From Desulfobulbaceae bacterium (lineage in GTDB: Bacteria > Desulfobacterota > Desulfobulbia > Desulfobulbales > BM004), in assembly GCA_002868955.1 (NCBI GenBank), contig PKTW01000150.1, positions 1 through 32,088 of the forward strand: DNA of 32,088 bases, read 5' to 3'. The position numbers and the translations under genes were made by a program. The notes under the pieces are model-generated. The model was not told where the DNA came from and made no database searches. It worked only from the letters and a program-made list of their open reading frames with translations. Shown here piece by piece: positions 17,986 through 32,088 of the stretch. Positions within the stretch are counted from its first letter, which is position 1. Each line of letters starts with the position of its first letter.

Positions 17986-17997
17986 TGCACCAAGGAC

Positions 17998-18027: not shown

Positions 18028-18219
18028 ATTTTCATCTGACACATGATTATTTTCAGAAAATTATATTAACGGAACACTCCCCATGTAAATGATGATAGCC
18101 CAACTTAATAACACAGAGGGATAAATGTCATTGGTATATTTTGTAGAAATGATGATGAAGGATGCTCTGATCACTCAATGATAATTATGGAAGTTGTCCG
18201 ATAATAATACTACCCGAGG

Positions 18220-18345
18220 TCTTTTTCTCTCTGTCTTTCGACGGTCACACTCCGCAGGGCACCGTCACTTTCCACGAAGGATTCGAGGCTGATGGCCCCA
18301 AAATTGCTCCAGCAGAGGGCTGATCTCCGCCGCTGAGCTTTGTGT
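18220..18345. other. GC-rich patch, possible gene remnant
   Basis: This stretch is markedly richer in G+C than its surroundings and reads as open frames on both strands: + strand ending at a TGA at 18321-18323 and containing FDGHTPQGTVTFHEGFEADG, and - strand containing RRRSALCWSNFGAISLESF. Neither has a start codon with a ribosome-binding site, and the minus frame is stopped just upstream. It could be the 3' end of a lost gene or a structured RNA; I do not recognise it. Confidence 0.3.
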
Positions 18346-18380
18346 TAAAGTTTTTGCTAATATCTGTTAACTCGCAAATG

Positions 18381-18458
18381 ATTCTTAAAAGGTTGCCAAA
18401 TACACTGGCAACCTTTACTTGTTTTTAGAGATTGAAAAGTTAAGATGTTGGCAAGCAA
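18381..18458 (+). repeat. Hairpin repeat R1 (18-nt-loop family)
   Basis: The core is TTTACT - 18 nt - AGTTAAGATGTTGGCAAG. It is preceded by a perfect 10-bp stem, AAAGGTTGCC / GGCAACCTTT (18388-18416), that may also act as a terminator. It is the first of a family that separates genes through the rest of the accessory regions. Confidence 0.65.
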
Positions 18459-18464
18459 TATGAT

Positions 18465-18494
18465 TTTACATGGGTGTTAATTAGGGGATATAAT
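18465..18494 (+). promoter_or_regulatory. Candidate promoter of the universal stress protein gene
   Basis: TTTACA (18465-18470), an 18-nt spacer and a perfect TATAAT (18489-18494) lie about 60 nt upstream of the start codon, just after repeat R1. Confidence 0.42.
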
Positions 18495-18552
18495 AAAGCT
18501 CTCATTTATAATTCAATTAAATAACCTTCCAAAGAAATATATAGGTTACTAT

Positions 18553-18993
18553 ATGGAATTCCTTGTAGCGGTTGATCTTTCAGATTTGTCAGAAATTGTA
18601 ATCGAGGAAGCAAAAAAAATAGCAAAACCTTTAAATGCTAAAATATGGTTAGTTCACATTGCTGAACCTGATCCATATTTTGTCAGCTGGGAAGCCGGCC
18701 CAGATACGGAACGTGATTCAGTTGCAAGTAAATTTCATGCCGAACACGTTACTTTACAGAAATACGCAGAAGAATTACGAACTGATGGTATTGATTGCGT
18801 TGCACTCTTAATCCAAGGCGAAACGGTAAAAAACATACTGAAAGAAGCAAAGAAGCTGTCGGTAGATATGATTATAATTGGTACGCACGGAAAGGGGGCT
18901 GCAATGAGGTTGTTATTAGGCAGTACTAGTGAAGGAATTTTGCATAGTTCACCCATTCCCATGCTTATTATACCAACACATAAACGTGCCTAA
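18553..18993 (+). CDS. Universal stress protein, UspA-like
   Basis: A 146-residue single-domain Usp. It opens with MEFLVAVDLSDLSE, has the long helix-loop region expected after strand 2, and ends with the ATP-binding signature GTHGKGAAMRLLLGSTSEGIL, then VPMLIIP-like SPIPMLIIPT. The presence of G-2x-G-9x-G(S/T) suggests the ATP-binding subclass. Its stop codon lies inside GCCTAACAAAATAAGC; similar sequence follows the gene near 27390. It is the first cargo gene of the island, between repeats R1 and R2. Confidence 0.9.
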   Translation: MEFLVAVDLSDLSEIVIEEAKKIAKPLNAKIWLVHIAEPDPYFVSWEAGPDTERDSVASKFHAEHVTLQKYAEELRTDGIDCVALLIQGETVKNILKEAKKLSVDMIIIGTHGKGAAMRLLLGSTSEGILHSSPIPMLIIPTHKRA

Positions 18994-19072
18994 CAAAATA
19001 AGCAAAATGTAATTTTTTACTATGTGGTATATAAAATCAAGTCGAAGCAAAATCGCCTAGTTGTGACTGCTG

Positions 19073-19180
19073 CTATCAATTGACACTCCTGAATGATTCC
19101 TAAAGTGTAAAGATGTCCACTACACATCTTAACTCGTAATCTCGGCTGGATAAGTTAAGATTGTGGCAAGAAATCTACAG
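19073..19180 (+). repeat. Hairpin repeat R2 (best-preserved copy)
   Basis: It has three alternating copies of one word: AAGATGT (direct), ACATCTTAACT (inverted), 18 nt, then AGTTAAGATTGTGGCAAG (direct). The two inner arms form an imperfect stem of about 13 bp. Its left 50 nt (19073-19122) recur at 24142-24191 with two mismatches. Confidence 0.75.
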
Positions 19181-19212
19181 TTTGCCTCTCCGAAAGTGGT
19201 TTTTCAAAAATC

Positions 19213-20091
19213 TCACCCGGAATCGAGGCTTCTACAGTTTTTGGTTATCTCATCCCTACTAGTCATGCCAATCAAAAACGAATCAATGAAGGGAAGATTT
19301 CTCACATACCTTATGGATTCATCTGTCTTTTCTTGAAGATGACCTTCGGCCAACACTTTCATACCCACAACACCTTTTGTCTTGGAATGGATAACTTTGA
19401 GCGTCTCTTCTACTTCCCTACGGTTTGTCTCTGAAAGAGAATCGGTGTCGATTTTCGGGCGGAGAGCAGCAGTCAGATTCTTGGGTAGAATCACTTTTGC
19501 AAGCTTCTTCAGACAGGAAACAGAGGCAAGTTGATCATAGAGCCCCATTCTGTCTGAATCCATACAAAGCCCAGCAAAATTTATCCGTGCCCAAACCAAA
19601 TCAATCTCCGGGACCTCCGCGGCTGCTTTTAGGGCGCTCAAACCATGAGACGAGAGCCCCACTGCTCTCACTTTCCCCGCTTTTTTGTATTTAAGCAGCT
19701 CATTGAGAGCTCCTTGTTTGTAGGACAACTCGCGCTTGGTCCTGAGCCCGTGCATCAAGCAAACATCTACATATTCAACTCCGAGTTCCTTGAGGGAGGT
19801 GCTAAACATCTTTTCCGTCTCCTTCTCATGGGAACTTACTAGTTTAGTAGCTATCACAACATCCTGACGTCTTACATGACGAAGGGCCTCTCTGATATGT
19901 CGATGAGTTCCGTATTGAAATGCCGTATCCCAAAAATTTACACCATGTTCAAAAGCGTAAAGGAGAAGTTCGGCCATCTCCTTCTTATCCATCAAAGCCT
20001 GAGAGCAGCAACCGGATGGATGCGCGGTTCCCGTCCCAAAACCGAGCTTCGAGACTTTAATACTTGTCCTGCCTAGTTTTACCTTTTCCAT
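19213..20091 (-). CDS. Aldo/keto reductase
   Basis: A 292-residue NADPH-dependent oxidoreductase with the family tetrad visible: Asp55 (WDTA), Tyr60 (FQYGTH), Lys83 (ATKL) and His114 (CLMHGL). The order of segments fits the short aldo/keto reductases related to YccK/Tas-type proteins. Many members of this group have uncertain substrates, so only the enzyme class is called. It reads opposite to the flanking hairpin repeats R2 and R3. No clear ribosome-binding site is seen before the ATG. Confidence 0.87.
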   Translation of the reverse strand: MEKVKLGRTSIKVSKLGFGTGTAHPSGCCSQALMDKKEMAELLLYAFEHGVNFWDTAFQYGTHRHIREALRHVRRQDVVIATKLVSSHEKETEKMFSTSLKELGVEYVDVCLMHGLRTKRELSYKQGALNELLKYKKAGKVRAVGLSSHGLSALKAAAEVPEIDLVWARINFAGLCMDSDRMGLYDQLASVSCLKKLAKVILPKNLTAALRPKIDTDSLSETNRREVEETLKVIHSKTKGVVGMKVLAEGHLQEKTDESIRYVRNLPFIDSFLIGMTSRDEITKNCRSLDSG

Positions 20092-20336
20092 GTTGAGTTG
20101 CTTGAAAGCATAATGTCTTCTATTCTAGTAACTGGTAATTACAACCAATGTTTATAACATATCACCTTTTTAATTAAGAAACCAGACTGATAGCGATGGA
20201 TACAATGACTGCGAGGACTCAAGATAAAGGGTAGGGTCAATAATGGTTCTACCTTTTTATTTCACGAATCCAGATGTCTGCTCCATTGTAAGTTGTGATT
20301 GATTCTTAATATTCCCAATCTTCCATTGGATACATT

Positions 20337-20362
20337 AACCCTTCCATCGGGCGGGGTTTTTT
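20337..20362 (+). terminator. Terminator-like hairpin fused to repeat R3
   Basis: AACCCTTCCATCGGGCGGGG followed by TTTTTT. It differs from the minus-strand terminator at 17998-18027 at only a few positions, but its stem is imperfect. Its T-run continues directly into R3, as it does at R9 (30386). Confidence 0.5.
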
Positions 20363-20438
20363 ATTTGATATTTAAGATGTACAGCGGATATATTTAATCA
20401 GATTTTGAGTTTCAAAACTGTAGATTGTGGCAAGAAAT
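20353..20438 (+). repeat. Hairpin repeat R3 (CAGATTTT-loop subtype)
   Basis: GGGTTTTTTATTTGATATTT, then AAGATGT, TTTAAT - 18 nt starting CAGATTTTG - ACTGTAGATTGTGGCAAG. It matches R9 on the opposite strand along its whole length, including the GGG-T-run at its left edge, and resembles R4 in loop and right arm. Confidence 0.68.
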
Positions 20439-20500
20439 GTAGAATAGGCCATTATTATAATTAATGATTGTCTTACGTTATAAATATAAAGGAGATTAAA

Positions 20501-20740
20501 ATGATAGAAATGGTAGATATCGGATTTGATAAAGCAGTTGCATATCGTATTGAAGGAAAAGTAACTGAGGAAGAAATCACTTCTATTTTTGCAAAATTTA
20601 AAGAAAAGATTAAAAAAGGCGAAAAGCTGATTCTATATCAAGAAATTACAAGCATTGGTGGGGTTGAGTTTGATGCGGTAGTTGAGAAATTCAAATTTTT
20701 ATTTGATTTTGGAATTTCACATTTCAGCAATTCAACTTGA
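20501..20740 (+). pseudogene. SpoIIAA-like (STAS-related) protein, C-terminally truncated
   Basis: A 79-residue product starting at ATG 20501 after a good AAAGGAG site. The sequence (MIEMVDIGFDKAVAYRIEGK...ILYQEI...FKFLFDFGISHFSNST) matches the N-terminal two thirds of the SpoIIAA-like family, whose members are about 120 residues. The family normally continues after GISHF with a strand and two helices, which are missing. The next gene begins 12 nt later, so the end was lost by deletion rather than frameshift. It lies in a group of three damaged small genes between R3 and R4. Confidence 0.6.
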
Positions 20741-20752
20741 GAGGTAAAAAAC

Positions 20753-21022
20753 ATGGGAATTGAAACTGTTCTTTTTAAAAGCGAAGAAAAGAAATCAGCT
20801 AAAGAAATCGCTGAAATTTTACGTCAGATAGCCGATAAGATCGAAAGCGGCTCCATGACCCTAATGCAAAGTGGCAATGAAACTATTCTCGATTTCCCTC
20901 AGAGCATGATTTTATAGATGAAAGTTGAAGAGGAACAGGCCAGGAAACTAAAAAAATCCTTTGAAATAGAACTGGAATGGATTCCAGGCGAAGCTCAAGA
21001 AGGAGGTGCAACAATCCGATAA
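20753..21022 (+). pseudogene. Amphi-Trp domain protein interrupted by an in-frame TAG
   Basis: The frame reads MGIETVLFKSEEKKSAKEIA... to FPQSMIL, then TAG (20915-20917), then MKVEEEQARKLKKSFEIELEWIPGE... to a TAA at 21020-21022. Together the two halves (54 and 34 residues) make one amphi-Trp domain of normal length, with the typical KKSFEIELEW end. The TAG stands where relatives as I recall them have a Glu, so a single GAG-to-TAG change explains it. GAGG lies before the first ATG. An ATG directly after the TAG could restart translation. Amber suppression with pyrrolysine is possible but less likely among decayed neighbours. Confidence 0.6.
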
Positions 21023-21037
21023 ATTGGAGAACGAACA

Positions 21038-21154
21038 ATGCAACAAGAAAAAAGTAAATCACGGGTAGGGTTGTCTATTCTCACAATACTGGTAGTGATG
21101 GCGTTTGGGTTTGAGGCTTATGCCCAGTATCAAGATGTACAGTGGATTTTTTGA
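21038..21154 (+). pseudogene. Signal-peptide gene cut short at repeat R4
   Basis: A 38-residue frame starts at ATG 21038 and reads as a convincing signal peptide (hydrophobic core VGLSILTILVVMAFGF, cleavage site EAYA) but then stops after nine more residues, YQDVQWIF being encoded by repeat R4. The mature protein is missing. The most direct reading is that the gene once continued and was replaced by the repeat. Confidence 0.6.
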
Positions 21155-21193
21155 CTCAGATTTTATCTGATGAAACTGTAGATTCTGGCAAGC
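21127..21193 (+). repeat. Hairpin repeat R4
   Basis: TATCAAGATGTACAGTGGAT, then TTGACT - 18 nt starting CAGATTTTA - ACTGTAGATTCTGGCAAG. Same subtype as R3 and R9. The left part is inside the truncated signal-peptide gene; the right edge is 5 nt from the stop codon of the membrane-protein gene. Confidence 0.68.
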
Positions 21194-21197
21194 TATC

Positions 21198-22295
21198 TTA
21201 ACTATAACCTTCCTCCCCCATCACCTTGCCAAACATCAGACTTACTACCATGCACTCAAGCCCGAAGGGCAGATATCCAGCATATCCCAGGATCGGCATT
21301 TCAAAGATATGGAAACGCTGGACAAAGGGCACCGAGTATTCCCAGTGGGCTAAGCTATTAACATTCCACAGCTCCCAGAAAAAACCACAGAATAAGGCAG
21401 CAAGGGCCGGCAACCAGACCATTCTCCAGTCACCGTTCTGCAGATCACTAAACAGGGTCGTTTCGGAACAGAGCAGCTGAATTCCGGTGATGATCAGGAA
21501 CGGGGCCACCCAGAGCATAGAAAAGAGAAAGTTCGGATAGATACTGATTGCTCCCAGGGAGGGCGCGGCAAGGAGCAGGAGAAGCCAGCCCCACATCTTC
21601 GGCCTATGCAGAGTAATCCTTCGCCAATTCTGCAGCGGTCTAGTGAGTCGGGGAAATGAGGCCAAGAATTCCTTGGTACTCATTACGGCTGGCAAAACCG
21701 TTGAAAAACATAGGCTGGCATGAAGGACATATTGTCCAGTGGAGAAATTCTCCACTCCCAGGTAATGCCAGTTCTGGACAAAACGGTTCAGGTATTCAAA
21801 AAACCACCAAAAAATGGAGCTCAGCAGGAACAGAGCAAGGAAAAAGCGGGGCCGGTTGACAAGCAGGCAGCGACCGCTGCGGGTCCAAGTCAGACTGTTG
21901 ACGCTGATGATGAAACCCAACCACAGCGGGAAAAAAGTATAGGGCTGCATGGGAATAAACCATTGGAACCTGGTCCAGGCTAACAACCAGGAAAGTGCTG
22001 TCAGCAAGAAACCAGCATATCCCCACCAGGGGAAGGGTTTTTGGGGAAGGAGCGGAACCTGGGCCGGGCCTTTATATATGAGAAAGCGTCGGATGAGCGG
22101 CATCAGGATTGAAAAGAGTAGTAGTCCCAAGAGCAGGAATGCCATCAAGGAAAAAGGGGCATGTTGCACATAGACGGTCAGTGGCGGGAACTCCAGATAT
22201 GCCCCCAGTGGCCTGTCCTGCAGTATGACTCCAGCCAGAGGCAGCAAGATCAGGAGCAGGGGCAAAAACACCATGCTAATCCAAATATGTTTCAT
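21198..22295 (-). CDS. Multi-spanning membrane protein of unknown function
   Basis: A 365-residue, strongly hydrophobic protein, rich in Leu, Trp and Phe, with roughly nine to ten predicted membrane segments and short loops. Two segments carry conserved-looking aromatic clusters (FWWFFEYLNRFVQNWHYLG and FFWELWNVNSLAHWEY). I do not recognise the family. It fits exactly between repeats R4 and R5, reads opposite to both, and has no clear ribosome-binding site. Its compact fit between repeats supports the view that repeats delimit mobile units. Confidence 0.72.
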   Translation of the reverse strand: MKHIWISMVFLPLLLILLPLAGVILQDRPLGAYLEFPPLTVYVQHAPFSLMAFLLLGLLLFSILMPLIRRFLIYKGPAQVPLLPQKPFPWWGYAGFLLTALSWLLAWTRFQWFIPMQPYTFFPLWLGFIISVNSLTWTRSGRCLLVNRPRFFLALFLLSSIFWWFFEYLNRFVQNWHYLGVENFSTGQYVLHASLCFSTVLPAVMSTKEFLASFPRLTRPLQNWRRITLHRPKMWGWLLLLLAAPSLGAISIYPNFLFSMLWVAPFLIITGIQLLCSETTLFSDLQNGDWRMVWLPALAALFCGFFWELWNVNSLAHWEYSVPFVQRFHIFEMPILGYAGYLPFGLECMVVSLMFGKVMGEEGYS

Positions 22296-22300
22296 GTGTG

Positions 22301-22400
22301 TAAGCCTAAAGTTTCAGAGTGTAAGGTGCAAGGTCAACATGTCCATCGCACATCTTAACTTTAATTTCTACCCGAAAAAGTTAATATTGTGGCATGTAAT
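22301..22400 (+). repeat. Hairpin repeat R5
   Basis: CCTAAAGT, then CACATCTTAACT - 18 nt - AGTTAATATTGTGGCATG. The left edge is about 6 nt from the membrane-protein start codon, and the right edge opens straight into a headless patatin gene. Confidence 0.72.
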
Positions 22401-22408
22401 GTTCATTT

Positions 22409-22800
22409 TATGTTCAAACCCCCCAGCCACCACATTGAGGTTTTGTTATTGGCAACGCTACAGTAGTTTTCTTTCCGATAGTATATATGAAAAGTGGATT
22501 GTAGGGCTCAATGCTGCCGGGCATAAGGTTAGTTTTCACTTTATTGAAGTAAACTTTGCCGGTGTGCCAAACGTGGATGACCGGGACAGGCTGTACTGGA
22601 TCGGCACGAATTTCGACCTGAGCGATGAAGATGTTGATTTTCTTATTACTTCTGCTCACAAGGCTTTACGCCAATCTGCAGACTTCCAGGATTTCCTGGC
22701 GGAAAACAGGAAGATTATGGAGAGAAAGAGAAGAGGCTTGTGCAGAATTATTAATTATAATAGCTTTAGAGAAGTGTTCAGGGCGTCAAATAAAGAATAA
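22409..22800 (+). pseudogene. C-terminal fragment of a patatin-like phospholipase
   Basis: About 125 residues resemble the C-terminal end of patatin-like phospholipases: RYSSFLSDSIYEKWIVGLNA, FHFIEVNFAGVPNVDDRDRL, the IGTNFDLSDEDVDFLITSAH segment and LRQSADFQDFL. The catalytic part (GxSxG serine and DG aspartate) is absent. The homology begins just right of repeat R5, so the N-terminal two thirds have been lost at the repeat. It ends 18 nt before an outer-membrane phospholipase gene, suggesting a former two-phospholipase operon. The frame has an ATG at 22409 but probably encodes nothing functional. Confidence 0.6.
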
Positions 22801-22818
22801 AGGAAAAGGAGATGGGGG

Positions 22819-23871
22819 ATGAAAGGACGAAGTAAAAAGAAACACATTGGGACTTTTTTCAAAGCTGGAATGATTTTGGCCGTCTTACTGGTAATGCGTG
22901 CTGGTTATGGTCAGGCTGCTGCCACAGAAACTACACCTAACAAGACAGCTGTACAGGAGTGTTTACTCAGGGAATTGGAGTCTGCCCAGAGCGGCACGAC
23001 CGTTGATCAACTCCGGAACAAGTGCCAGGCTGGGCTGATGGCCTCTGCAGAAAAAGAGGAGGATGCAGGAATAGTAGATGTCAGATACTATACCGATAAG
23101 GGGAATATCCTGCGGCCTTTTACCCTTATGGCACACAGGCCCAATTATATCCTGTTGGCATCCTATAATAAGGATCCCAACAATAAACCGTATCAAGAAG
23201 CGACCGGAGACCCGAATTTAGAATTGGATAATGTTGAGTCCCAGTTCCAGGTCAGCATCAAGATCCCACTGGCAGTTGACCTGTTCAAAAAAAAGGTGGA
23301 CATATTTAGTGCCTTTACGATGCGTTCCTTCTGGCAGGTATACAATAACGATATTTCATCCCCCTTCCGCGAGACAAATTACGAACCGGAAGCCTGGGTG
23401 CAGTTCCGCCCCAACTGGACTTTCTGGGGCATCAGGAATATTGCTAACGTGATCGGGATCAACCATCAGTCCAACGGCAGGACTGAGCCGTTATCAAGGA
23501 GCTGGAACCGCATCATTGCCAGTTTCGTCTTTCAAAAGGGAAACCTGGCATTTGCCATCAAGCCCTGGTATAGGCTACCCGAGGATGACGAGGACGATAA
23601 CAACCCTGATATAACCGATTACCTGGGACATTACGAGATCCGGGCGGGCTATAAATGGAAAGAAAATGTATTTTCTGTCATGTCGCGCAACAACCTGGAA
23701 TCCGGTTTCAGTAAAGGGGCTGTTGAGCTGACCTGGAGCTTTCCCCTGGGGAGCTACAAGTATCTCAAGGGCTATGTTCAAGGCTTTACCGGCTACGGGC
23801 AGAGCATGATTGACTATAATTACTATCAAAACAGCATCGGCATCGGCTTTGCGGTAACCGACTGGCTGTAG
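22819..23871 (+). CDS. pldA: Outer-membrane phospholipase A (OMPLA)
   Basis: A 350-residue secreted protein with a signal peptide (about residues 1-35, ending in GQAAA), an N-terminal extension with two Cys (48 and 69), and a beta-barrel domain of alternating strands. The OMPLA active site is intact: His216 and Ser218 in GINHQSNGR, and Asn230 in RSWNR. The His-Asn spacing of 14 equals that in E. coli. The enzyme hydrolyses phospholipids that have strayed into the outer leaflet. AAGGAGA precedes the start. It follows the patatin fragment and is intact island cargo. Confidence 0.92.
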   Translation: MKGRSKKKHIGTFFKAGMILAVLLVMRAGYGQAAATETTPNKTAVQECLLRELESAQSGTTVDQLRNKCQAGLMASAEKEEDAGIVDVRYYTDKGNILRPFTLMAHRPNYILLASYNKDPNNKPYQEATGDPNLELDNVESQFQVSIKIPLAVDLFKKKVDIFSAFTMRSFWQVYNNDISSPFRETNYEPEAWVQFRPNWTFWGIRNIANVIGINHQSNGRTEPLSRSWNRIIASFVFQKGNLAFAIKPWYRLPEDDEDDNNPDITDYLGHYEIRAGYKWKENVFSVMSRNNLESGFSKGAVELTWSFPLGSYKYLKGYVQGFTGYGQSMIDYNYYQNSIGIGFAVTDWL

Positions 23872-23974
23872 AGTTATTACCAATAAATTAGGCATTGAGG
23901 GCGGTGAGCGCTATTAAGAAAGATAAATGATTAATTCTGGTCACTATTCCGGCAGGATAATTGGTTAATTTTTC

Positions 23975-24172
23975 ATGAAATATTTTGCAAAAAAAATTCT
24001 ACTTTATTGTTTACTGGCAGTAAAAATACTGCCAGTAAACAATTCGGTTCAGGCCCAATCCAACGAAAATAAAGCATTGCCCCTGTTTTATTGGGGTTTT
24101 CCTTTCATGTGCAGCGTATCAGCAATTGATGGTTGCTGCTTCTATCAATTGACACTCATGAATGATTCCTAA
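23975..24172 (+). pseudogene. Signal-peptide gene running into repeat R6
   Basis: A 65-residue frame with a good signal peptide (MKYFAKKILLYCLLAVKI, cleavage after SVQA) and a short mature part (SNENKALPLFYWGFPF), after which the last residues (FYQLTLMNDS) are encoded by the repeated sequence also found at 19073. As with the gene at 21038, the rest of the protein is missing and the repeat supplies the stop. I do not recognise the family. Confidence 0.5.
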
Positions 24173-24191
24173 AGTGTAAAGATGTTCACTA
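24142..24191 (+). repeat. Truncated hairpin repeat R6
   Basis: This 50-nt segment matches the left half of R2 (19073-19122) with two mismatches and then switches abruptly to integrase-tail coding sequence at GATGTTCACTA. The 18-nt loop and right arm are absent. Confidence 0.75.
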
Positions 24192-24303
24192 TATGCAACC
24201 GTCAGAAGATAACCTGAAAACAGCCATGCAAAATTATACGAATTGGCTTGACGAACAGCACCACAAATTGCAAAATGTTGACCAAACTGTTGACCAAAAA
24301 TAA
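24181..24303 (+). pseudogene. C-terminal tail of a tyrosine (phage-type) integrase
   Basis: The frame reads HYMQPSEDNLKTAMQNYTNW, then LDEQHHKLQ and a NVDQTVDQK end. This has the look of the last residues of integrases that end with a YTNWLD helix and VDQ repeats, with the HYMQ tyrosine as a possible catalytic residue. Everything upstream is replaced by repeat R6. The stop lies 34 nt before the right att-like repeat, the usual position of an integrase gene. The VDQ codons coincide with the TGTTGACCAAA arm-like repeats. Confidence 0.6.
24276..24300 (+). repeat. Two TGTTGACCAAA direct repeats at island right end
   Basis: Copies start at 24276 and 24288 and match those at 17955-17985 in sequence and direction. 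They overlap the integrase tail and encode its VDQ repeats. Confidence 0.55.
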
Positions 24304-24337
24304 TTTTTTCAAGCTATAACAAGGCAAAGAAGCCCAT

Positions 24338-24357
24338 CTGGTAATCACTCCAGGTGC
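24338..24357 (+). repeat. Right 20-nt direct repeat of the island (putative att site)
   Basis: CTGGTAATCACTCCAGGTGC, 19/20 identical to 17796-17815. It lies between the integrase tail and the pheA-tyrA start codon, 25 nt upstream of the latter. Confidence 0.7.
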
Positions 24358-24382
24358 ATTTCAGCAATTAAAGGACAAGTAC

Positions 24383-26062
24383 ATGAAATCCTTAGCTACA
24401 TTAGGTCCAGAGGGGTCATCCTCATGGCAGGCAGCCAAACAGTTTGCCCCTGAGGCCGGAATAAAGCTTTTTCCGAATACGCCTTCAGTAATAAAAGCGT
24501 TTGCGGAAAAGCTGACAGACCTTGCCCTGATCCCGGTATACAATACCCGGGAAGGCGAGAGTATTGAGTATTTCCGCATCATGGAAAAACTCAGCAAGGC
24601 GAACTGGATTGACAATGTAGTTCTGCCCGTTCATCTTTCACTCGGTGCCATTGATGATGGGCATCCACTTTCCATGCTCATTGGTAAAAGCAACAGTTTC
24701 AGGCAGTGCGAAGAATATATAACGAACTACTATCCCCTGCTGCCGCAGTTAGCTGTAACCGATCTTCAGCAGGCGATTAATGAAGCCAGGGGAAAAAATA
24801 AGCTTGATCAAGGCTTTGTTGCCACAGAAGAATTTCTCGTGGCAAACGGCCTGCTGATCCGGGAAAGGGAATTGGCGCCACATAACCAGACCCGATTTGC
24901 CGTCATCAGTGCAACCCCTTCCGAACCAAGCGGGTATGATGCCACTGCCCTCCTGACCCTGCCCCTGAACGATCGGGTCGGCCTTCTTGTTGATATTCTT
25001 GGGGAATTCACCAGACGCGGTATCAATATTATAGATATGCGGACAGAAAGCGATATCAAGACCCAGAAACTGCAGATCTATATTGAAGCTGAAGGCCATA
25101 TCAAGGATAAAAACCTTGCCGATGCAGTAAAAGCCATAAGTGAGCATATCATTCAAGAGCCCGGCTCTTTCCAGGTTCTGGGCAGCTTTCCAAGGGTTGA
25201 CATGCGCACCAAACACATATCCTCTTTTGGCTTTATCGGCACAGGGGCTATGAGTAAATGGTTTGCCAAACGGCTGGGGAACGAAGGTTACAAATCACTG
25301 CTTACAGGCCGTACAAGTGAAATGAAACCCGAGGATATGGTCAGCCAGGTTGATGTGGTGGTCATCTGTGTGCCTATAAGCGCAACAGCCGAAGCAGTTA
25401 ACAAATACGGACCGCTCCTGGAAGACGGACAGGCCCTGATTATCCTGGCAGGAGTGGCTGAAAATGCTCTTGATGCAGCCCTTGAAAAGACCCGCCCCGG
25501 CGTCGAAGTCATGCTTGTCCATAACCTCTGGGGACCCCAGGCAAAAACCATGAAGGACAAGAATGCCACCGTTGTGCGGACAAAAAGAAGCGGCCTTCTC
25601 TGCAGTGAATTTGAGGCCTTTTTATACAAGCACGGTGCACTGATCAATCAGGACAGTCCCTCCAAGCATGACCTGCTGATGGGTGTTGGCCAGAAACTGC
25701 CCACAACGGTTTCCGTGGCACTTGCCATGACACTGAAGGACAACCAGATCCCCCAGGATGAGATCGGCAGCCATTCAACCCTCACATCACTGTACGGTAT
25801 TCTGGCCATGGCCCGTGTGCATACCCAGAACCCCAGAACCTATGCGGAGATAATGGCTACCACAGGGGACGGCCGCAAGATTGTCAAGAGCTTTGCTGAA
25901 AACCTGATCAGGCTAATGGACATGGCTAATGAGGGAAAAATTGACGCCCTTTGTACGATCATCGATGATAACAGGCATTACCTGACAGATGAGTTTTTAA
26001 AGGCCAGGATGCTGCAGTCCCTTGCCGTTGATGAAACCCTGAGCAAGATTATCCGTTCCTGA
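24383..26062 (+). CDS. Prephenate dehydratase-ACT-prephenate dehydrogenase fusion
   Basis: A 559-residue protein with three parts: a PheA-type dehydratase-like domain (1-175), an ACT regulatory domain (about 185-265, DRVGLLVDILGEFTRRGINI) and a TyrA-type dehydrogenase (about 280-559, GFIGTGAMSKWFAKRL; catalytic His380 in HNLWGP). These steps make phenylpyruvate and hydroxyphenylpyruvate for Phe and Tyr. The dehydratase keeps the TRF motif (170-172), but the usual P-I-E-N-S is PVYNTREG and the ACT ESRP motif reads TESD, so its activity or feedback control may differ. AAGGA precedes the ATG. The island's right boundary is only 25 nt upstream, so insertion may have changed its promoter. Confidence 0.85.
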   Translation: MKSLATLGPEGSSSWQAAKQFAPEAGIKLFPNTPSVIKAFAEKLTDLALIPVYNTREGESIEYFRIMEKLSKANWIDNVVLPVHLSLGAIDDGHPLSMLIGKSNSFRQCEEYITNYYPLLPQLAVTDLQQAINEARGKNKLDQGFVATEEFLVANGLLIRERELAPHNQTRFAVISATPSEPSGYDATALLTLPLNDRVGLLVDILGEFTRRGINIIDMRTESDIKTQKLQIYIEAEGHIKDKNLADAVKAISEHIIQEPGSFQVLGSFPRVDMRTKHISSFGFIGTGAMSKWFAKRLGNEGYKSLLTGRTSEMKPEDMVSQVDVVVICVPISATAEAVNKYGPLLEDGQALIILAGVAENALDAALEKTRPGVEVMLVHNLWGPQAKTMKDKNATVVRTKRSGLLCSEFEAFLYKHGALINQDSPSKHDLLMGVGQKLPTTVSVALAMTLKDNQIPQDEIGSHSTLTSLYGILAMARVHTQNPRTYAEIMATTGDGRKIVKSFAENLIRLMDMANEGKIDALCTIIDDNRHYLTDEFLKARMLQSLAVDETLSKIIRS

Positions 26063-26114
26063 TCCTACTGGGCGTGTTTATTGACTTTTTTACTATCATG
26101 CTTACTCTAAATCT

Positions 26115-26228
26115 ATGGAAAAAAATCCCGAGAAAAAAAAGAGTGAACACCCTGTTGTTGTTCTCATTATTTTTATTTTGCTCCTGATTCCAATTCTTAT
26201 CCTGTTTGGCGGTAAACCCTATACCTGA
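26115..26228 (+). CDS. Small single-span membrane protein, hypothetical
   Basis: A 37-residue frame with a charged N-terminus (MEKNPEKKKSEH), one hydrophobic helix (VVVLIIFILLLIPILILF) and a short GGKPYT tail. The layout is that of real small membrane proteins, with positive charges on the inside. There is no strong ribosome-binding site, so it is tentative. Confidence 0.45.
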   Translation: MEKNPEKKKSEHPVVVLIIFILLLIPILILFGGKPYT

Positions 26229-26331
26229 AATGTGAATCAGAGATTGCCCCAGTTAGGAGCAGACACAACCATTTCTACGCCAAAGTAGTTTTTTATTAAC
26301 TTCTCTACGTGCACCCCATTGGAGGATATTC

Positions 26332-26982
26332 ATGTTAAATACCTGTAAGAAGTACCTTGATGAAAAACATTTCTGCCCCCACTGCAAAGAACAACTCTCC
26401 TGCTGCAGCACGCCGCCCATCCATGTTGGCGATGGACTGGGCTGGGGCACCGAGGCCTATTTTATCTGCTTAAACGATGAATGTTCTCTCTTTAAAAATG
26501 GCTGGGAGCACATCGAGATGCAGTTCGGCCACCGGGCCTCCTATCGTTATATGCTTCTGCCAGGCAATACAGAAGGTACGCCGATGATGGTCGGCAGTAA
26601 AGACGCTTTCAAGGGCTGTGTCATTGATTCTGAAAGCATAAAGCTGCAGGATGAGCGCTATGCCAGAGAAAAAGAAGCCCTGGCCAAGCTGGATACCTGC
26701 GTAGCAGAAAAAAATCTGGAGCCGGTTCTTTATTTGCTTCTCGATGAAGCTGCAGACAGGAAAAACCGCGAACGGGCTGCTGATCTGCTGGTCGAGCTCA
26801 ATGATCTTTTATGCATAGATCCTCTCCGCAACCATACTTTCAGGGATGACAACCTGGTCCAAAAGGTGAATCTGGGCATTAAACAGCTGCTGAAGACAAA
26901 TTTCAAAAAAGAATGCCCAGACTGCGCGGAAATAATAAAAGCCCAGGCCCATAAATGCCAGCACTGCGGTAAAGAATTTTAA
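26332..26982 (+). CDS. Zinc-ribbon protein, hypothetical
   Basis: A 216-residue cytoplasmic protein with putative zinc-binding Cys pairs at both ends: CPHC...CC near residues 17-28 with a later CLNDEC, and a C-terminal CPDC-x12-CQHC ribbon (about 197-213). The middle part is helical and rich in charged residues. A good GGAGG site precedes the ATG. I do not know a specific function; C-terminal ribbons of this kind are common in regulatory or scaffold proteins. It lies upstream of tRNA-His in backbone sequence. Confidence 0.7.
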   Translation: MLNTCKKYLDEKHFCPHCKEQLSCCSTPPIHVGDGLGWGTEAYFICLNDECSLFKNGWEHIEMQFGHRASYRYMLLPGNTEGTPMMVGSKDAFKGCVIDSESIKLQDERYAREKEALAKLDTCVAEKNLEPVLYLLLDEAADRKNRERAADLLVELNDLLCIDPLRNHTFRDDNLVQKVNLGIKQLLKTNFKKECPDCAEIIKAQAHKCQHCGKEF

Positions 26983-27082
26983 GTACTGGTTTTTTGCTGC
27001 AACACTCTATAGTTTCCGTCCAGACTGCAGTAAAAACTTGCCAAAATAATGAGCATCTATTATAAGAGATGCCTTGCTGTAT

Positions 27083-27160
27083 GGTGAGCGTAGCTCAGCT
27101 GGTGGTAGCACCGGGTTGTGGCCTCGGCGGTCGTGGGTTCAAGTCCCATCGCTCACCCCA
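27083..27160 (+). tRNA. tRNA-His (GTG)
   Basis: A full cloverleaf: acceptor GTGAGCG / CGCTCAC, D-arm GCTC AGCTGGTGGTA GC-type, anticodon stem CCGGG / CTCGG with loop TTGTGGC (anticodon GTG), T-arm GTGGG TTCAAGT CCCAT-type, and encoded CCA. The extra G at position -1 (27083) opposite C73 is the histidine-tRNA hallmark. A long minus-strand frame across it is an artefact. tRNA 3' ends are common integration targets, and accessory DNA begins right after this one. Confidence 0.97.
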
Positions 27161-27206
27161 GAAATACAAAGGGATTGCGGTCAATCTGTAGTCCCTTTTT
27201 TTTTGC

Positions 27207-27240
27207 CACTTTTTCATTCCCCATACCATTCCCCATATAA
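27207..27240 (-). pseudogene. Possible end of a second integrase gene next to tRNA-His
   Basis: On the - strand, tandem TATGGGGAATG units encode LYGEWYGE followed by a stop, pointing toward tRNA-His about 50 nt away. Repeats of this kind at the end of an integrase frame parallel the VDQ tail at 24276-24303. Only these few codons remain, so the call is weak. Confidence 0.3.
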
Positions 27241-27345
27241 AAAACACCCAAAAAGACAATAAAAAAGCCCCTCCGGGTGATAGCAACCGGTTTCCTCTAC
27301 GGTGTATGTTGGTAATATTAACTTTTCGCTTCCTATATACCAAAT

Positions 27346-27386
27346 ACAAAAAGCCAGGGAGGGAATTATGATTCCAGCCCTGGCTT
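27346..27386 (-). terminator. Bidirectional hairpin terminator
   Basis: AAAGCCAGGG pairs with CCCTGGCTTT around a loop containing a further GAAT/ATTC pair, with T-rich sequence on either strand. It would end the minus-strand gene at 27430-27888. Confidence 0.7.
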
Positions 27387-27390
27387 TATT

Positions 27391-27429
27391 TGTTAGGTTT
27401 ACAATAGCAATCTTGACTAAGCTATCAAT
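27391..27429 (-). repeat. Half copy of the hairpin repeat (R7)
   Basis: On the - strand, AGTCAAGATTGCTATTG matches the right arm of R8 up to GATTG. The left arm and loop are replaced by the 3' end of the adjacent gene. ACCTAACAAATAAAGC follows, resembling the sequence at the stress-protein stop codon (18987). Confidence 0.4.
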
Positions 27430-27888
27430 CTATTTTTTGCCACTGCCTTTCTTTTTGCTTTTTCCATGATCGTTGCTGCTGTAAAGAACTTCGATGTGCC
27501 TATTGCCGCCGTTTAGATCATGGCCGCTTTTCAGGGCATGGAACTCTTCTGATCCTGGTTTTATCCCTAAACTCTTGGCCAGTGCGCCCCAACCTTTCCC
27601 TTTGCTATGCCTGTACTTCTCAAAAACATAATCAACTTGCTTTCCTGACATTTCACCAAGCCGCAGCATTAAATAAGCGTCTGCCGGCTCATCAACATTA
27701 CTGAGCACGGCGTCAATTTGCACGTTGCCAATTTTAAATCGTGTTGCAAGCCGTGCTCTGAATCCTGACGGGTCCGACTGAGCTTGTATATTGAAATCCT
27801 CGGTCCACCCAAAATCACTTGCCATTGCAGCAGATGAAACAACTAATATAGCTATCAAGGAAATGAGAAAAATTTTAAATAGTTTCAT
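27430..27888 (-). CDS. Secreted protein of unknown function
   Basis: A 152-residue protein with a signal peptide (residues 1-23, ending in AMA). The mature part contains FGWTEDFNIQAQSD near the start, a helical region with LMLRLGEMSGKQVDYVFEKY, and GKGWGALAKSLGIKPGSEEF, then a Lys/Gly/Ser-rich tail. Secreted proteins with the GWGALAKSLGIKPGS motif occur in many Desulfobacterota as far as I recall, but I know no function. GGGGGAG precedes the ATG. It is the first gene after tRNA-His. Confidence 0.72.
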   Translation of the reverse strand: MKLFKIFLISLIAILVVSSAAMASDFGWTEDFNIQAQSDPSGFRARLATRFKIGNVQIDAVLSNVDEPADAYLMLRLGEMSGKQVDYVFEKYRHSKGKGWGALAKSLGIKPGSEEFHALKSGHDLNGGNRHIEVLYSSNDHGKSKKKGSGKK

Positions 27889-28271
27889 AACTCCCCCTAA
27901 TGTTTTGTCATTAATTTTACTAATAAGTAAAAATTCTGTTCGTTAAATATTAAGCAAAAATTGTGCCTAGTATTTAAAAGTGAAAAAGATGAAAGTGTAC
28001 AAAAAATTTCAGAAACAGATTATAGACGTAAATACATGATAATAATGAATTAAATTGGCGTAGGGGAAAATTAATTTTTTTGAGTTGGGTATTTATATTT
28101 AAAATCAATTCTTCTTGGGAGAAAAATATCACAACAGGGAATAAAGGTTTGACGGTGAATTATGCTTATTGGAAACAAGGTTTACTTCATTGTTTTCAAG
28201 TGCGAGAGTAACGTTGGTAACGGGTTGAAAAATATTTTCACCCATTATCCCAAACTACAGCCTTTTCACAT
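27889..28271. other. AT-rich gap between secreted-protein and MscS genes
   Basis: No gene, terminator or full hairpin repeat is seen. It is the only junction in this block where I could not find a copy of the repeat. A short + strand frame starting at 28162 runs into the MscS gene and is not supported. Confidence 0.45.
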
Positions 28272-29522
28272 TCACATTTCACCTAACCTCGAAAAATCAT
28301 ACCCTGAAGGATTCTGGAATAACCGTAGGTCAAATTCAGGAACAGCGGCCAACAGATGGTCAAAGACATCTGCCTGGATTGCTTCGTAATTGGCCCAGAC
28401 TTGGTCGTTGCTAAAGACATAGATTTGGACTGGCAGGCCATACTGGGTCGGTTCAAGATGTCTGACCAGGAAAGTCATGCTCTGATGGATTTTGGGATGA
28501 TTTTTCAAGTAGGCAATGATATAAGCCCGAAAGACACCAATGTTGGTCTGGCGCCTGCCGTTTATCAGCTGCTCTGGATTTGAGGTGTGCTCCTTGTTGT
28601 AGATAGCTATTTCCTTCTGTTTTTCTGTTATGTAGTGTTTTATGAGGTCGAACTTTCGAAATCGCTCTAGCATTTCATCGGTGCAGAATTTTATTGAACT
28701 CATGTCAATATGCAGGGCTCGCTTGATACGGCGTCCGCCTGACTCGCTCATGCCTCGCCAGTTCTTGAAAGCATCAGAAACAAGGCTGTAAGTGGGTATG
28801 GTGGTTATAGTCTTGTCCCAATTGCGGACCTTGATTGTATGTATCGTCACATTGATCACATCACCATCAGCTCCGTATTTAGGCATTTCTATCCAGTCTC
28901 CAACACGCACCATGTCATGCCCGGATAACTGAATGCTGGCGACAAATCCCAGGATGGTATCCTTGAAGACGAGCATGAGCACGACGGTGAACCCGCCAAG
29001 AATGCTAAGAACTCCCCAGGGAGACTTGCCTGTGAGAATGGAGACAATGAAAATGCCTGCCATTGCATAAGCGATGATCTTGATTCCATCCAAATATCCT
29101 CTTATGGGACGGCGGATTGAAACGTCTGACTTATTGTAGATTTCCCGAATGGCTAGTAAGATCGCATCAAGCATCCATACCCCGGCAAAGACAAAGAATA
29201 CCATGGCGAGCCGTTTGAACAGTTCAGAGGTCATGGCCTGACCGGGCAACATGAGATCCGCTGACATGTAAACAACGATGATAGGCATGAGCAAGGAAAG
29301 CCGCCTGACAAAACCGTGTTGGACCAAGGCGTCGTCCCAAGTGTTCTTGCTGCGTTGGAATATAATTTCAATAGCATGGACCATGTAGCGTTTGGTGATC
29401 CAGTATGATGCATATGCCAATAAAAGGATTAGAATAATAGTTGCAGTAATACCAATAAAATTGGCTGTTGGCTCTGTCATGCCATTAGCAATAAGAAAAT
29501 CAGTGATGAAACGATCGTTCAT
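28272..29522 (-). CDS. MscS-family mechanosensitive channel
   Basis: A 416-residue membrane protein with about five N-terminal membrane segments, a pore-lining helix region rich in Gly (TGKSPWGVLSILGGFTVVLMLVFKDTILGFVASIQL), and the soluble MscS beta domain (DMVRVGDWIEMPKYGADGDV, VRNWDKTITTIPTYSLVSD). The length and the FKNWRGMSESGGRRIKR motif fit the YbdG-like subgroup of MscS channels, which release solutes under osmotic down-shock. ATG at 29522 is preferred to the upstream TTG at 29540. It lies between the gap and repeat R8. Confidence 0.9.
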   Translation of the reverse strand: MNDRFITDFLIANGMTEPTANFIGITATIILILLLAYASYWITKRYMVHAIEIIFQRSKNTWDDALVQHGFVRRLSLLMPIIVVYMSADLMLPGQAMTSELFKRLAMVFFVFAGVWMLDAILLAIREIYNKSDVSIRRPIRGYLDGIKIIAYAMAGIFIVSILTGKSPWGVLSILGGFTVVLMLVFKDTILGFVASIQLSGHDMVRVGDWIEMPKYGADGDVINVTIHTIKVRNWDKTITTIPTYSLVSDAFKNWRGMSESGGRRIKRALHIDMSSIKFCTDEMLERFRKFDLIKHYITEKQKEIAIYNKEHTSNPEQLINGRRQTNIGVFRAYIIAYLKNHPKIHQSMTFLVRHLEPTQYGLPVQIYVFSNDQVWANYEAIQADVFDHLLAAVPEFDLRLFQNPSGYDFSRLGEM

Positions 29523-29601
29523 TTTGTTGTCAGGGTCCAAGGATTAAGAAGTTAAAGTAGTTAAGATTTAAACAAACAAGTTAAAGGTATTTTAAAATTC
29601 A

Positions 29602-29670
29602 CATTGCTTGCCACAATCTTGACTTTAAAATGAAAAATTACCAGTTAAGATGTGCACTGGCAATAGCAAC
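29602..29670 (-). repeat. Hairpin repeat R8, minus orientation
   Basis: On the - strand: GCACATCTTAACT - 18 nt - AGTCAAGATTGTGGCAAGC. It is nearly identical in its arms to R2 and R5 although on the other strand. It sits upstream of the MscS gene and downstream of the next secreted-protein gene. Confidence 0.75.
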
Positions 29671-29723
29671 TTTCTTGGATAGTACTGCTAGTCAAGATTC
29701 ATAGGCATTGATAGTTACTAAAT

Positions 29724-29759
29724 AAAAATGGCAGGACCATTTCTGACCCTGCCATTAAA
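29724..29759 (-). terminator. Hairpin terminator of the 29778-30269 gene
   Basis: AATGGCAGG pairs with CCTGCCATT; on the - strand it is followed by a T-rich tract. It lies about 20 nt past the gene's stop codon and just before R8. Confidence 0.75.
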
Positions 29760-29777
29760 TTTCATAAAGGAAGTACT

Positions 29778-30269
29778 TCACTCCTGACATAATTTTATAA
29801 GATGAACAAAAGCATCTATAATACTTGTCTCTTCAGGCACCTCGGAAGTTATAAAAATAGGAAATGCTTTCTCACTGCTACTGAATTTTTCATTATTGTA
29901 TTCTCTCTTAAAATAGTCTCCGTATTTATTAAATCCATTAACAGTGATACATTTTTCATTATGAAAACACTCAAGATATATGCGTCTCCGTCCTTCACTT
30001 TGTTTTTGGATAATTTCTGCATTTAAATCCTTAGCATTTGCAGATACTGTTACATCCTTTTCGCCCTTATCACTTTTTGTATGAAATCTGTATGCTATAT
30101 CACAATCATCATCAATTTTTAAGCTACTTGGACCGCCTGCGAATCTACTTTCTAAAAAATTTATAGTTATTCCTATTGAAGGTCCCAACTCACCAGGTCC
30201 ACAACCCAAGGTCAAACTGGGACTTAAAAAAACGATAATAAGTATTAGGGAAAATAGGATTCTATGCAT
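29778..30269 (-). CDS. Secreted or lipoprotein-like protein of unknown function
   Basis: A 163-residue protein with a signal peptide ending at SLTLG-C, close to but not a perfect lipobox. The mature part is polar and has three further Cys (in DDDCD, ECF and EKC), which may form disulfides. I do not recognise a family. Low G+C and a weak ribosome-binding site are as in its neighbours. It is bounded by R8 and R9 on its two sides. Confidence 0.62.
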   Translation of the reverse strand: MHRILFSLILIIVFLSPSLTLGCGPGELGPSIGITINFLESRFAGGPSSLKIDDDCDIAYRFHTKSDKGEKDVTVSANAKDLNAEIIQKQSEGRRRIYLECFHNEKCITVNGFNKYGDYFKREYNNEKFSSSEKAFPIFITSEVPEETSIIDAFVHLIKLCQE

Positions 30270-30303
30270 GGTTGTTCCGCAGTTGGTTAGAATTGCATAA
30301 CTA

Positions 30304-30386
30304 TCTTGCCAACATCTTGAGTTTGGTCATACAAAATCTGACTCAACATATCCAACGGACATCTTAAATATCAAATAAAAAAACCC
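30304..30386 (-). repeat. Hairpin repeat R9, minus orientation
   Basis: On the - strand: GGG, T-run, ATTTGATATTTAAGATGTCC, then TTGAGT - 18 nt starting CAGATTTTG - ACTCAAGATGTTGGCAAG. It aligns with R3 over its whole length although R3 lies 10 kb away on the other strand. Confidence 0.72.
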
Positions 30387-30412
30387 ACCATTTCTGGCAG
30401 GGGCTCTGGGGT
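30377..30412 (-). terminator. Terminator of the cytochrome gene
   Basis: On the - strand, AACCC...CCTGCCA-GAAA-TGGTGGGTT is followed by seven Ts. It lies about 15 nt past the cytochrome stop codon and merges with R9. Confidence 0.7.
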
Positions 30413-30428
30413 TTGAATAAAATTAAGG

Positions 30429-30776
30429 TTATTTGCCGAGTGATTTGATGTAACTTACTATCTCCTGCATCTCGGTTTCGAGAACCTTGAGTGCATCGCC
30501 TTTATTTGCATTGACAATGCACATATTAATCGCTTCTTCAAGGCTAGCCTGTTGGCCACCCATTATGGCAAAACTGCTTTTTGTCCCTGCGCCTTCCAAG
30601 CCTCTTCCATTGGGATGGCAGGAGTTACATGCTTTTTTCCCACCCGCAAACTCCGGATTATTAAAATGAGTCTTTCCCTTGTCTGCAGGGGTCTGATGCT
30701 CTGCAACAGCCAACGTAAATGCGAGAGGCAGGGTCAGAGTTGAAATGATTATTAGAAACACTGTTTTCTTCTTCAT
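30429..30776 (-). CDS. Small c-type cytochrome
   Basis: A 115-residue periplasmic protein with a signal peptide (about 1-25, ending in AVA) and one haem c site, Cys50-x2-Cys53-His54 (CNSCH). The rest (LEEAINMCIVNANKGDALK, then EMQEIVSYIKSLGK) fits a single-haem class I-like cytochrome whose C-terminal helix ends in YIKSL. A Met, probably in the middle part, would be the second ligand. ATG at 30776 is chosen because TTGGAG lies 8 nt upstream and the signal peptide starts there; the frame is open upstream to 30875. It would carry electrons in the periplasm; the partner is unknown. Confidence 0.88.
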   Translation of the reverse strand: MKKKTVFLIIISTLTLPLAFTLAVAEHQTPADKGKTHFNNPEFAGGKKACNSCHPNGRGLEGAGTKSSFAIMGGQQASLEEAINMCIVNANKGDALKVLETEMQEIVSYIKSLGK

Positions 30777-31173
30777 AATTTTGTCTCCAAGAAAATTTAC
30801 GGAAAACAGAGGGATCAATACTGTAATAAATACCTTATTATCTATACATACATTACTATCTATACATACATTCAAACTGCGGAAAAGGCAAACTCCATAA
30901 TTTAAGAATGCGACAAAGTGTGTTAGGAAGGTGAATTTAGGTGAAGTGTAAATATCTTGCCAAAATAGAAACTATTTTGGGATAGAAATCGAGTGAAGGT
31001 GTGTACTGTCAATCTAAACTGTGTTGCCAGGCCGTTTAGTTGGGGTTTATCAGCAGAAACCTTAAATCGTAAAATAAAAACGGGTCTTTTCTGCTTGATA
31101 CTGTCAGACATATCAGCAGAAATATAAAATTATAAATAAAAAACAGCTTTTTTATTAGCTTCCCTTAAGCAAA
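30777..31173. other. Gap with 18-nt tandem duplication and repeat R10
   Basis: No supported gene. A direct duplication of TCTATACATACATT with an 18-nt period lies at 30841-30872. Repeat R10 lies at 30951-31013. The word TTTCTGCTGATA occurs twice on the - strand between R10 and the next gene. A minus frame of 62 codons overlaps R10 and is not supported. Confidence 0.45.
30951..31013 (-). repeat. Hairpin repeat R10, minus orientation (diverged)
   Basis: On the - strand: CACACCTTCACT - 18 nt - AGTTTCTATTTTGGCAAG. Both the 18-nt spacing and the terminal GGCAAG are kept although the arms no longer pair well. Confidence 0.55.
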
Positions 31174-31833
31174 TTATTCTTCAAACTCCAATGTTTCTGT
31201 TTTTAAGTTAAATTTACTTATCTTAGTGTCTGGACTTGCGATAATTAATATTCCCCATGAACCAAATTGTGAAAAATGTCCAAAACTGTAATCTTCACCT
31301 TTGAAAGATTCACCGTTTATGTTCATTGTTACTCTTCCATCAAATTTCGATATTTTTTTTATATTAATATCTAAATCGTACTCCCCAAGAGAAAACTTAC
31401 CTATTTTTTCATAAGATGTTAATGCGTTGTTGTTATTAAATCCAATAATTTCGTAGGTGTACAAATCTGGGACATACCCATATTGAGCAAGAACTTCTAA
31501 TTGATTTGGGTCAACAAAAAACATATTAAATGGTGCCTTATCTTCTGATATTTTTTGTATATCTAATTGAAGTTCAATTTCGATATTTCTAAACTCATTT
31601 AGCTTTTTAAGGCCAATAATATAAATTTGCCCCTCTGAAGTAACTTGTGACCCGACATTAGAATCTTGTAAATTTCTAATAATATATGGAATATAAACAT
31701 ATTTACCATCTGCCTTTGCATTGGCAGATTCAGCATTGTTTTCGACTTCCTGAAGTGTGGCATCATCTACCGCCAAAGCAATTCCTGCAGTTAAAAGAAC
31801 CAAACAAACGCCAATCGTTATGATATTTTTCAT
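31174..31833 (-). CDS. Secreted protein of unknown function
   Basis: A 219-residue protein with a signal peptide (residues 1-21, ending in GIALA). The mature part is rich in Asn, Asp, Ile and Lys with alternating hydrophobic residues, suggesting a beta-rich fold; there are no cysteines in it. I do not recognise a family. AAGGAC precedes the ATG. Low G+C compared with the backbone genes suggests recent acquisition. It is the outermost cargo gene in the window, between R10 and R11. Confidence 0.62.
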   Translation of the reverse strand: MKNIITIGVCLVLLTAGIALAVDDATLQEVENNAESANAKADGKYVYIPYIIRNLQDSNVGSQVTSEGQIYIIGLKKLNEFRNIEIELQLDIQKISEDKAPFNMFFVDPNQLEVLAQYGYVPDLYTYEIIGFNNNNALTSYEKIGKFSLGEYDLDINIKKISKFDGRVTMNINGESFKGEDYSFGHFSQFGSWGILIIASPDTKISKFNLKTETLEFEE

Positions 31834-31864
31834 GTTGTCTGTCCTTTACTTAAATTTATTGTCT

Positions 31865-31920
31865 GGCGATATTGACGCTATATCCTGTATATCGGGCAAA
31901 AGTCAAGATGTCTTGCCACA
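31865..31920 (-). repeat. Diverged hairpin repeat R11
   Basis: On the - strand: GACATCTTGACT - 21 nt - AGCGTCAATATCGCCAG. It keeps the arm words but with 21 rather than 18 nt between them. Because it is nearly symmetric, its orientation is less certain than for the others. Confidence 0.45.
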
Positions 31921-31959
31921 AGTGTGCCACGAACGCACCAAAGGATTTTATACCCCAAA

Positions 31960-32088
31960 GTGCGGTGCTGCGCAAGAGCTGAGGGTAGGTCCCTCGAAGC
32001 CGCCATACAGGTGGAGGCTTCAAACCACCTTAAGCTGCGCTGGTAAAGAGCCAGGGTGGTGAGCGTTAAGGAAAAGGCCCCGCAGGAC
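31960..32088 (+). ncRNA. Structured RNA, probable 5' part of a group II intron (partial)
   Basis: The sequence starts with GTGCG, the 5' consensus of group II introns, and then has nested hairpins: GAGGG/CCCTC (about 31982-31998), GAAGCC/GGCTTC around CAGGTGGA, CCACC/GGTGG, and CTGG/CCAG, closing with AAGGAAAAGGCC and CGCAGGAC. The layout resembles domain I of bacterial group II introns as I remember it. The reverse-transcriptase frame and 3' end would lie beyond the window. Its G+C content is far above that of the flanking cargo. Another structured RNA cannot be excluded. Confidence 0.5.

Follow-up and report, generated by a model that had tools for sequence, protein, structure and literature searches.

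Putative crossover sites of an integron-like gene cassette system in Desulfobulbales

To our knowledge, only one well-known platform, the integron, accumulates and reshuffles cassettes of single genes. Their attC sites serve in turn as targets for IIC-attC introns, which insert in the opposite orientation (PMC7923331). The repeats described here come from a 32,088-nucleotide stretch of a Desulfobulbales genome (the window) and are very probably the crossover sites of an integron-like cassette system. The original prediction described them as gene-separating hairpins and offered three possible roles: a cassette recombination site, a palindromic mobile element or a transcriptional boundary. No Rfam family matches over the sites at the gathering score, in agreement with the initial impression that no named element has this layout, and searches of open-licence papers found no account of such a site, or of cassettes bounded by it, from these bacteria. 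The system works like an integron, yet it lacks the neighbouring IntI, the attC boxes and the conserved top-strand hairpin of one; the silence of the literature is weak evidence of novelty.

Searching the 2.66-Mb genome that contains the window (G000) with a sequence-only model made from 15 repeat copies (R1) yields 83 matches at E<=0.0014. These matches are spread over 38 contigs, the best having an E value of 1.5e-19, so the family is real and larger than first listed. At E<=1e-5 among 58 genomes, copies are present in all nine members of the genus (68 in G000 and 1-43 in each of the others), and two of the 49 genomes outside the genus have one weak match each. The window holds eight full copies, arranged in two arrays at 18.39-22.41 kb (+) and 29.59-31.02 kb (-), together with two partial copies. 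As originally reported, the backbone at 1-17.7 kb and 24.4-27.3 kb has none.

Positions within a site are numbered here from the first G of GGCAAG (position 0). Conservation begins at about -61, preceded by a weaker motif that reaches -76, and stops abruptly on the right at +18. Each copy carries four short half-sites whose directions alternate: A (AAGAT at -55), B (ATnTTGACT at -39), C (AGTTAAGAT, to about -3) and D (ATnTTGACTT from +8). They form two tandem inverted pairs, A-B and C-D, each around about 7 bp, with 18 nt between B and C. This constant interval, first taken for a hairpin loop, is thus the spacing of two core sites; almost every copy preserves it with no insertion or deletion. 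The additional AAGATGT word noted ahead of the arms is also present, but it is reassigned here as half-site A. Contrary to the view that loop sequences differ freely, large subfamilies have CAGATTTTGTATGACAA in common. The most conserved part of the site is the heptamer TGGCAAG between C and D, rather than the arms. Each of its bases is 93-100% conserved; the corresponding overlap of A-B lacks such conservation, and a trinucleotide in arm C varies (GTT, CTG, CTC or CCA). Many sites have an extra upstream stretch, CTGCTATnAATnnACACTCGTGAATGATTCCTAAA, about 60-90 nt ahead of TGGCAAG (for example, window 19067-19122), and a subset have about 110-160 bp of upstream sequence in common.

Selection on a hairpin structure was not borne out. 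RNAalifold returns no consensus pairs for the site alignment. Ten single copies, folded as the top strand, each adopt a different fold that is no better than those of shuffled sequences (z from -1.7 to +0.7), and a clear compensatory change is seen in one column pair only (-32/-11). The hairpin or RNA reading was rejected on the lack of consensus pairs and of any excess stability over shuffles. A protein that binds both arms, which had been named as the other possibility, fits better. The conserved hairpin that typifies an attC strand is likewise missing from the top strand of these sites.

In G000, neighbouring sites less than 3 kb apart point in the same direction in 32 of 34 cases (p 3.5e-8). 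The median gap between neighbours is 978 bp, and most gaps enclose one gene, which may run in either direction. Mobile cassettes between same-direction sites, as in integrons, are found here, and in the window their cargo consists of ordinary accessory genes. Neither a transcriptional boundary nor a palindromic mobile element is supported. Genes run both ways against a fixed site direction, the right edge of the site is sharp, the 80-95 nt are not bounded by terminal repeats, which are one mark of a MITE, and the combination of GC-rich sequence and a T tract is missing from all four arms. One partial site of the window (24136-24191) is 95% identical to 19067-19122 and unrelated beyond. The other is interrupted by a group II intron that matches RF01999 with 94.9 bits at 31981-32088. 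Another RF01999 intron occupies the same site position as that at window 31922, on the opposite strand, in contig C146 of G000 (L095). Separately, c-di-GMP-I riboswitches lie in or beside arrays at four places in G000.

Table 1. Coordinates of sites, cassette genes and associated elements (window positions unless another locus is named)
Feature	Position	Strand	Match or score
Cassette site 1 (array 1); heptamer TGGCAAG 18449-18455	18392-18466	+	R1 54.4 bits
Cassette site 2 (array 1); heptamer 19164-19170	19106-19183	+	R1 65.9 bits
Cassette site 3 (array 1); heptamer 20428-20434	20371-20445	+	R1 62.9 bits
Cassette site 4 (array 1); heptamer 21186-21192	21129-21205	+	R1 62.2 bits
Cassette site 5 (array 1); heptamer TGGCATG 22390-22396	22332-22409	+	R1 58.8 bits
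Left-part site: upstream motif, half-site A and left spacer, cut at spacer	about 24136-24191	+	
Cassette site (array 2)	29594-29666	-	R1 66.4 bits
Cassette site (array 2)	30298-30368	-	R1 55.7 bits
Cassette site (array 2)	30944-31019	-	R1 55.6 bits
Right-part site: TGGCAAG and half-site D, interrupted by group II intron	31899-31921	-	
Group II intron, 5' part, between half-site C and TGGCAAG	31922-32088	+	RF01999
Left 20-bp direct repeat of array-1 island; core once in empty site	17796-17815		
Right 20-bp direct repeat of array-1 island	24338-24357		
Cassette gene, universal stress protein	18553-18993	+	PF00582
Cassette gene, aldo/keto reductase	19213-20091	-	PF00248
Cassette gene, SpoIIAA-like	20501-20740	+	PF11964
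Cassette gene, unknown membrane protein	21198-22295	-	
Cassette gene, phospholipase A1	22819-23871	+	PF02253
MscS-type channel gene, adjoins array 2	28272-29540	-	PF00924
Cassette gene, unknown secreted protein	29778-30269	-	
Cassette gene, SoxA/TsdA-type cytochrome c	30429-30875	-	PF21342
Cassette gene, unknown secreted protein	31174-31833	-	
c-di-GMP-I riboswitches	L098 9853-9927; L102 1342-1416; L100 2050-2125; L101 3780-3854		
15-bp inverted repeats CTATACGTAACAAAA of apparent recombinase-pair transposon, CTGCTAT on both sides	L186 (G008:C200) 2134-2148, 4310-4324		

Exchange of cassettes between species is seen when the two sides of 179 sites from eight genomes are compared separately. 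Thirteen strong pairs of sites have only the downstream flank in common, and nine have the upstream flank in common. Among the pairs in which the opposite flank could be compared, it is homologous in none of nine downstream-sharing pairs and in one of seven upstream-sharing pairs, and this single case is a tandem duplication inside one contig. In the best pair (L098 on G000:C112 and L230 on G006:C188), the two sequences are unrelated until TGTTGGCAAG/TTGTGGCAAG and then match at 99.8% over 481 bp downstream; in the window region, the backbones of these genomes are about 76-79% identical. Such pair alignments flip from unrelated to identical at TGGCAAG, as predicted if recombination occurs in the heptamer and D goes with the downstream cassette. 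The change-points of the best-resolved downstream pairs fall at -1, 4, 6 and -5, where the heptamer occupies -1 to 5, and some others lie 10-16 nt off it. One upstream-sharing pair (L124/L213) breaks at a CTGCTAT motif about 88 nt upstream, within the upstream stretch mentioned above, which may be a second exchange point.

These are the properties expected of a cassette recombination site: units of few genes, copies in the same direction, units in differing contexts across species, and breaks at or near the heptamer. The sites are the opposite of scattered elements unconnected with the gain and loss of genes. It is very hard to attribute this pattern to homologous recombination between dispersed REP- or MITE-like repeats that serve some other purpose, for instance as targets of a nucleoid protein. 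Although rearrangement may start from any repeat, these sites are diverged and, at about 80 nt, too short for efficient exchange. Homologous recombination also accounts neither for breakpoints that centre on a 7-bp overlap nor for same-direction arrays with new genes between the copies.

The full explanation that we consider probable is one of integron-like sites with crossover in the C-D heptamer, catalysed by a tyrosine recombinase that is likely to be Rec278 (see below) or a lost close relative. Each site of about 80-95 nt would consist of two tandem cores, A-B and C-D, each with half-sites of about 11 bp around about 7 bp. The working crossover would fall within TGGCAAG, the 7-bp overlap in the C-D core, and the near-invariance of this heptamer would be explained because an overlap region must be so. 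A cassette would span TGGCAAG, D, one or more genes, A, B and C up to the next TGGCAAG. A site-specific enzyme, presumably acting by tyrosine-recombinase chemistry through a circular cassette, would excise and insert cassettes at these sites. Such events could build arrays of unlike genes with the sites all one way, and could pass cassettes between species. Most present arrays would then be orphans with no adjacent enzyme.

The most likely enzyme would come from the Rec278 family, or would be a lost close relative of it; we rate the family itself at slightly better than even. Rec278 is a 278-aa tyrosine recombinase and the third recombinase on contig C5 of G000 (7138-7974), where it is intact, with R142, K165, H224, R227, H251 and Y260 all present. 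Relatives at 53-70% identity are found across Desulfobacterota. In those from Desulfobulbales, a site of the same layout lies about 45 nt 3' of the Rec278 stop codon and reads ACATATCAACT ... AGATATTCGAT TGGCAAT nTTAA, that is, B-loop-C-TGGCAA(T)-D. A model of this site built from gene 3' flanks (R2) detects it again downstream of Rec278 genes, or what is left of them, that had not gone into the model (L289, L290, L294, L370 and L339), and finds further copies in one direction around single- or few-gene units. Among 15 genomes of the order picked by Rec278 presence or absence, R2 sites occur in all eight with Rec278 and in none of the seven without it (exact p 1/6435). An A-B-type motif, AAGATTCAATATAGGTATCTTGACT, is also found upstream of Rec278 in L185 and L284.

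Several observations weigh against Rec278 as the enzyme of the R1 sites. Of the nine genomes in the genus, one has intact Rec278 and one more has pieces of it, most of these MAGs being incomplete. The copy in G000 is followed by only a partial site, and the first 8.2 kb of its contig carry no full-length sites. Half-site scoring around Rec278 is too weak to decide: the half-site motif is AT-rich, and matches near the gene are therefore weak evidence. R1 has no matches around Rec278 relatives in other genera, and R2 has almost none in G000. Because the two models barely cross-match, what links the site families is their layout and heptamer rather than close sequence. Outside Desulfobulbales, a TGGCAA site follows only some Rec278 relatives, and plain repeat finding for Rec278-linked repeats in L283 and L286 gave chance repeats only.

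A recombinase tree separates Rec278, as a distinct clade, from IntI, Xer and a two-gene recombinase pair (SH-aLRT 100), although the deep branches are long and their order is unsure. Its score of 41.9 bits against TIGR02249 is below the IntI threshold (cut-off 265). It is improbable that the repeats are instead divergent attC sites of a true integron array (a CALIN) whose IntI was lost. The cassette logic is identical, the sites harbour opposite-strand group II introns, and intact IntI is encoded by G004 and G008. However, the GTTRRRY/RYYYAAC boxes are missing, with variable bases at the box positions in 57+47 aligned copies, and the top-strand fold is neither stable nor conserved. The IntI loci of G008, G004 and G010 lack R1 sites, R2 sites occur without IntI in G055 and G043, and IntI occurs without sites in G014, G040 and G020. 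No IntI gene lies beside the arrays. G000 has only an internally deleted IntI pseudogene (C13:21454-21682), with no site there. IntI was rejected as the enzyme after a TIGR02249 search of 58 genomes and reading of the loci.

Host XerC/XerD, acting as they do on Acinetobacter pdif modules, are an equally unlikely means of moving the cassettes. The half-sites resemble Xer targets in forming inverted pairs with 11-bp arms, and half-site B is often ATATGTTGAGT, close to the E. coli XerD arm, TTATGTTAAAT. This likeness to the E. coli arm is partial, and the spacer is 7 bp rather than the 6 bp of dif; moreover, the sites all face the same way and each has two cores. Although Xer occurs in nearly all bacteria, R1 sites are genus-specific and R2 sites track Rec278. 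The two-gene tyrosine recombinase pair (G000:C5 and G008:C200) is a very doubtful candidate too. It is present in the two genomes with most sites, and in G008 it has inserted into a site's upstream motif. There, however, it lies between perfect 15-bp inverted repeats of its own around CTGCTAT, rather than TGGCAAG. The pair was set aside as an apparent transposon that uses the site region as a target.

Array 1 constitutes a 6.5-kb island that is missing from relatives. Window 17815-24337 is absent from G008, which retains a single CTGGCAATCACTCCAGGTG in place of the two 20-bp end repeats. The block is also missing at the same junction in G007, G001 and G002, and from G004 and G006, which have other local sequence. 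The empty site and the end repeats thus place array 1 in a site-specifically inserted block. An integrase gene is no longer present in the island. Its 20-bp core, CTGGCAATCACTCCAGGTGC (17796-17815), contains TGGCAAT, the heptamer of the Rec278-associated site, which could be a coincidence or a secondary target. Inside both island ends are TGTTGACC repeats (17963-17985 and 24273-24295), which look like arm-type integrase sites. Many other arrays adjoin tRNA genes; in several of these, a truncated phage-type integrase separates the 3' end of the tRNA from the first site. The same geometry, with N-terminally truncated phage-type integrases, recurs in four species (L128, L131, L173 and L174).

The chances seem evenly balanced that Desulfobulbales possess a second, independently evolved cassette-capture platform, defined by the Rec278 clade and a double-core TGGCAA(G/T) site read as duplex instead of as a folded strand, with about a hundred cassettes per genome being exchanged. 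If so, cassette capture evolved more than once, with an unrelated site and probably an unrelated integrase. A simple rule, TGGCAAG flanked by AAGAT and ATCTTGACT, would find cassettes that integron software misses, and the system would offer a clean test of whether cassette traffic needs folded single-stranded sites.

Integrons and CALINs are among the closest known systems. They and these arrays have in common one- or few-gene cassettes with one site of about 80 nt each, a constant site direction irrespective of how the genes run, cassette exchange among species, a tandem pair of simple sites in every site, and orphan arrays. The sites here differ in lacking GTTRRRY and a conserved single-strand fold and in their near-invariant overlap; the arrays differ in having no adjoining IntI, the candidate enzyme belonging to a separate tyrosine recombinase clade. 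Acinetobacter pdif/dif modules, which depend on XerCD (PMC6449649), are also small gene modules with short inverted half-site pairs at their borders. In contrast, each boundary here has a double core with a 7-bp overlap, the sites are direct rather than alternating, and the system is chromosomal and unlinked to Xer distribution.

tRNA-targeted islands and tycheposons resemble the tRNA-adjacent arrays, several of which include a truncated integrase of phage type, and array 1 with its 20-bp direct repeat and empty site. The difference is that the cassette sites found within the islands here form a distinct feature, which has a crossover of its own. Like IIC-attC introns (PMC7923331), the RF01999 group II introns found here are inserted in a cassette site in the opposite orientation, but beside TGGCAAG rather than at TTGT/T in R''. 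This insertion is an independent sign that other mobile elements treat the sites as attC-like.
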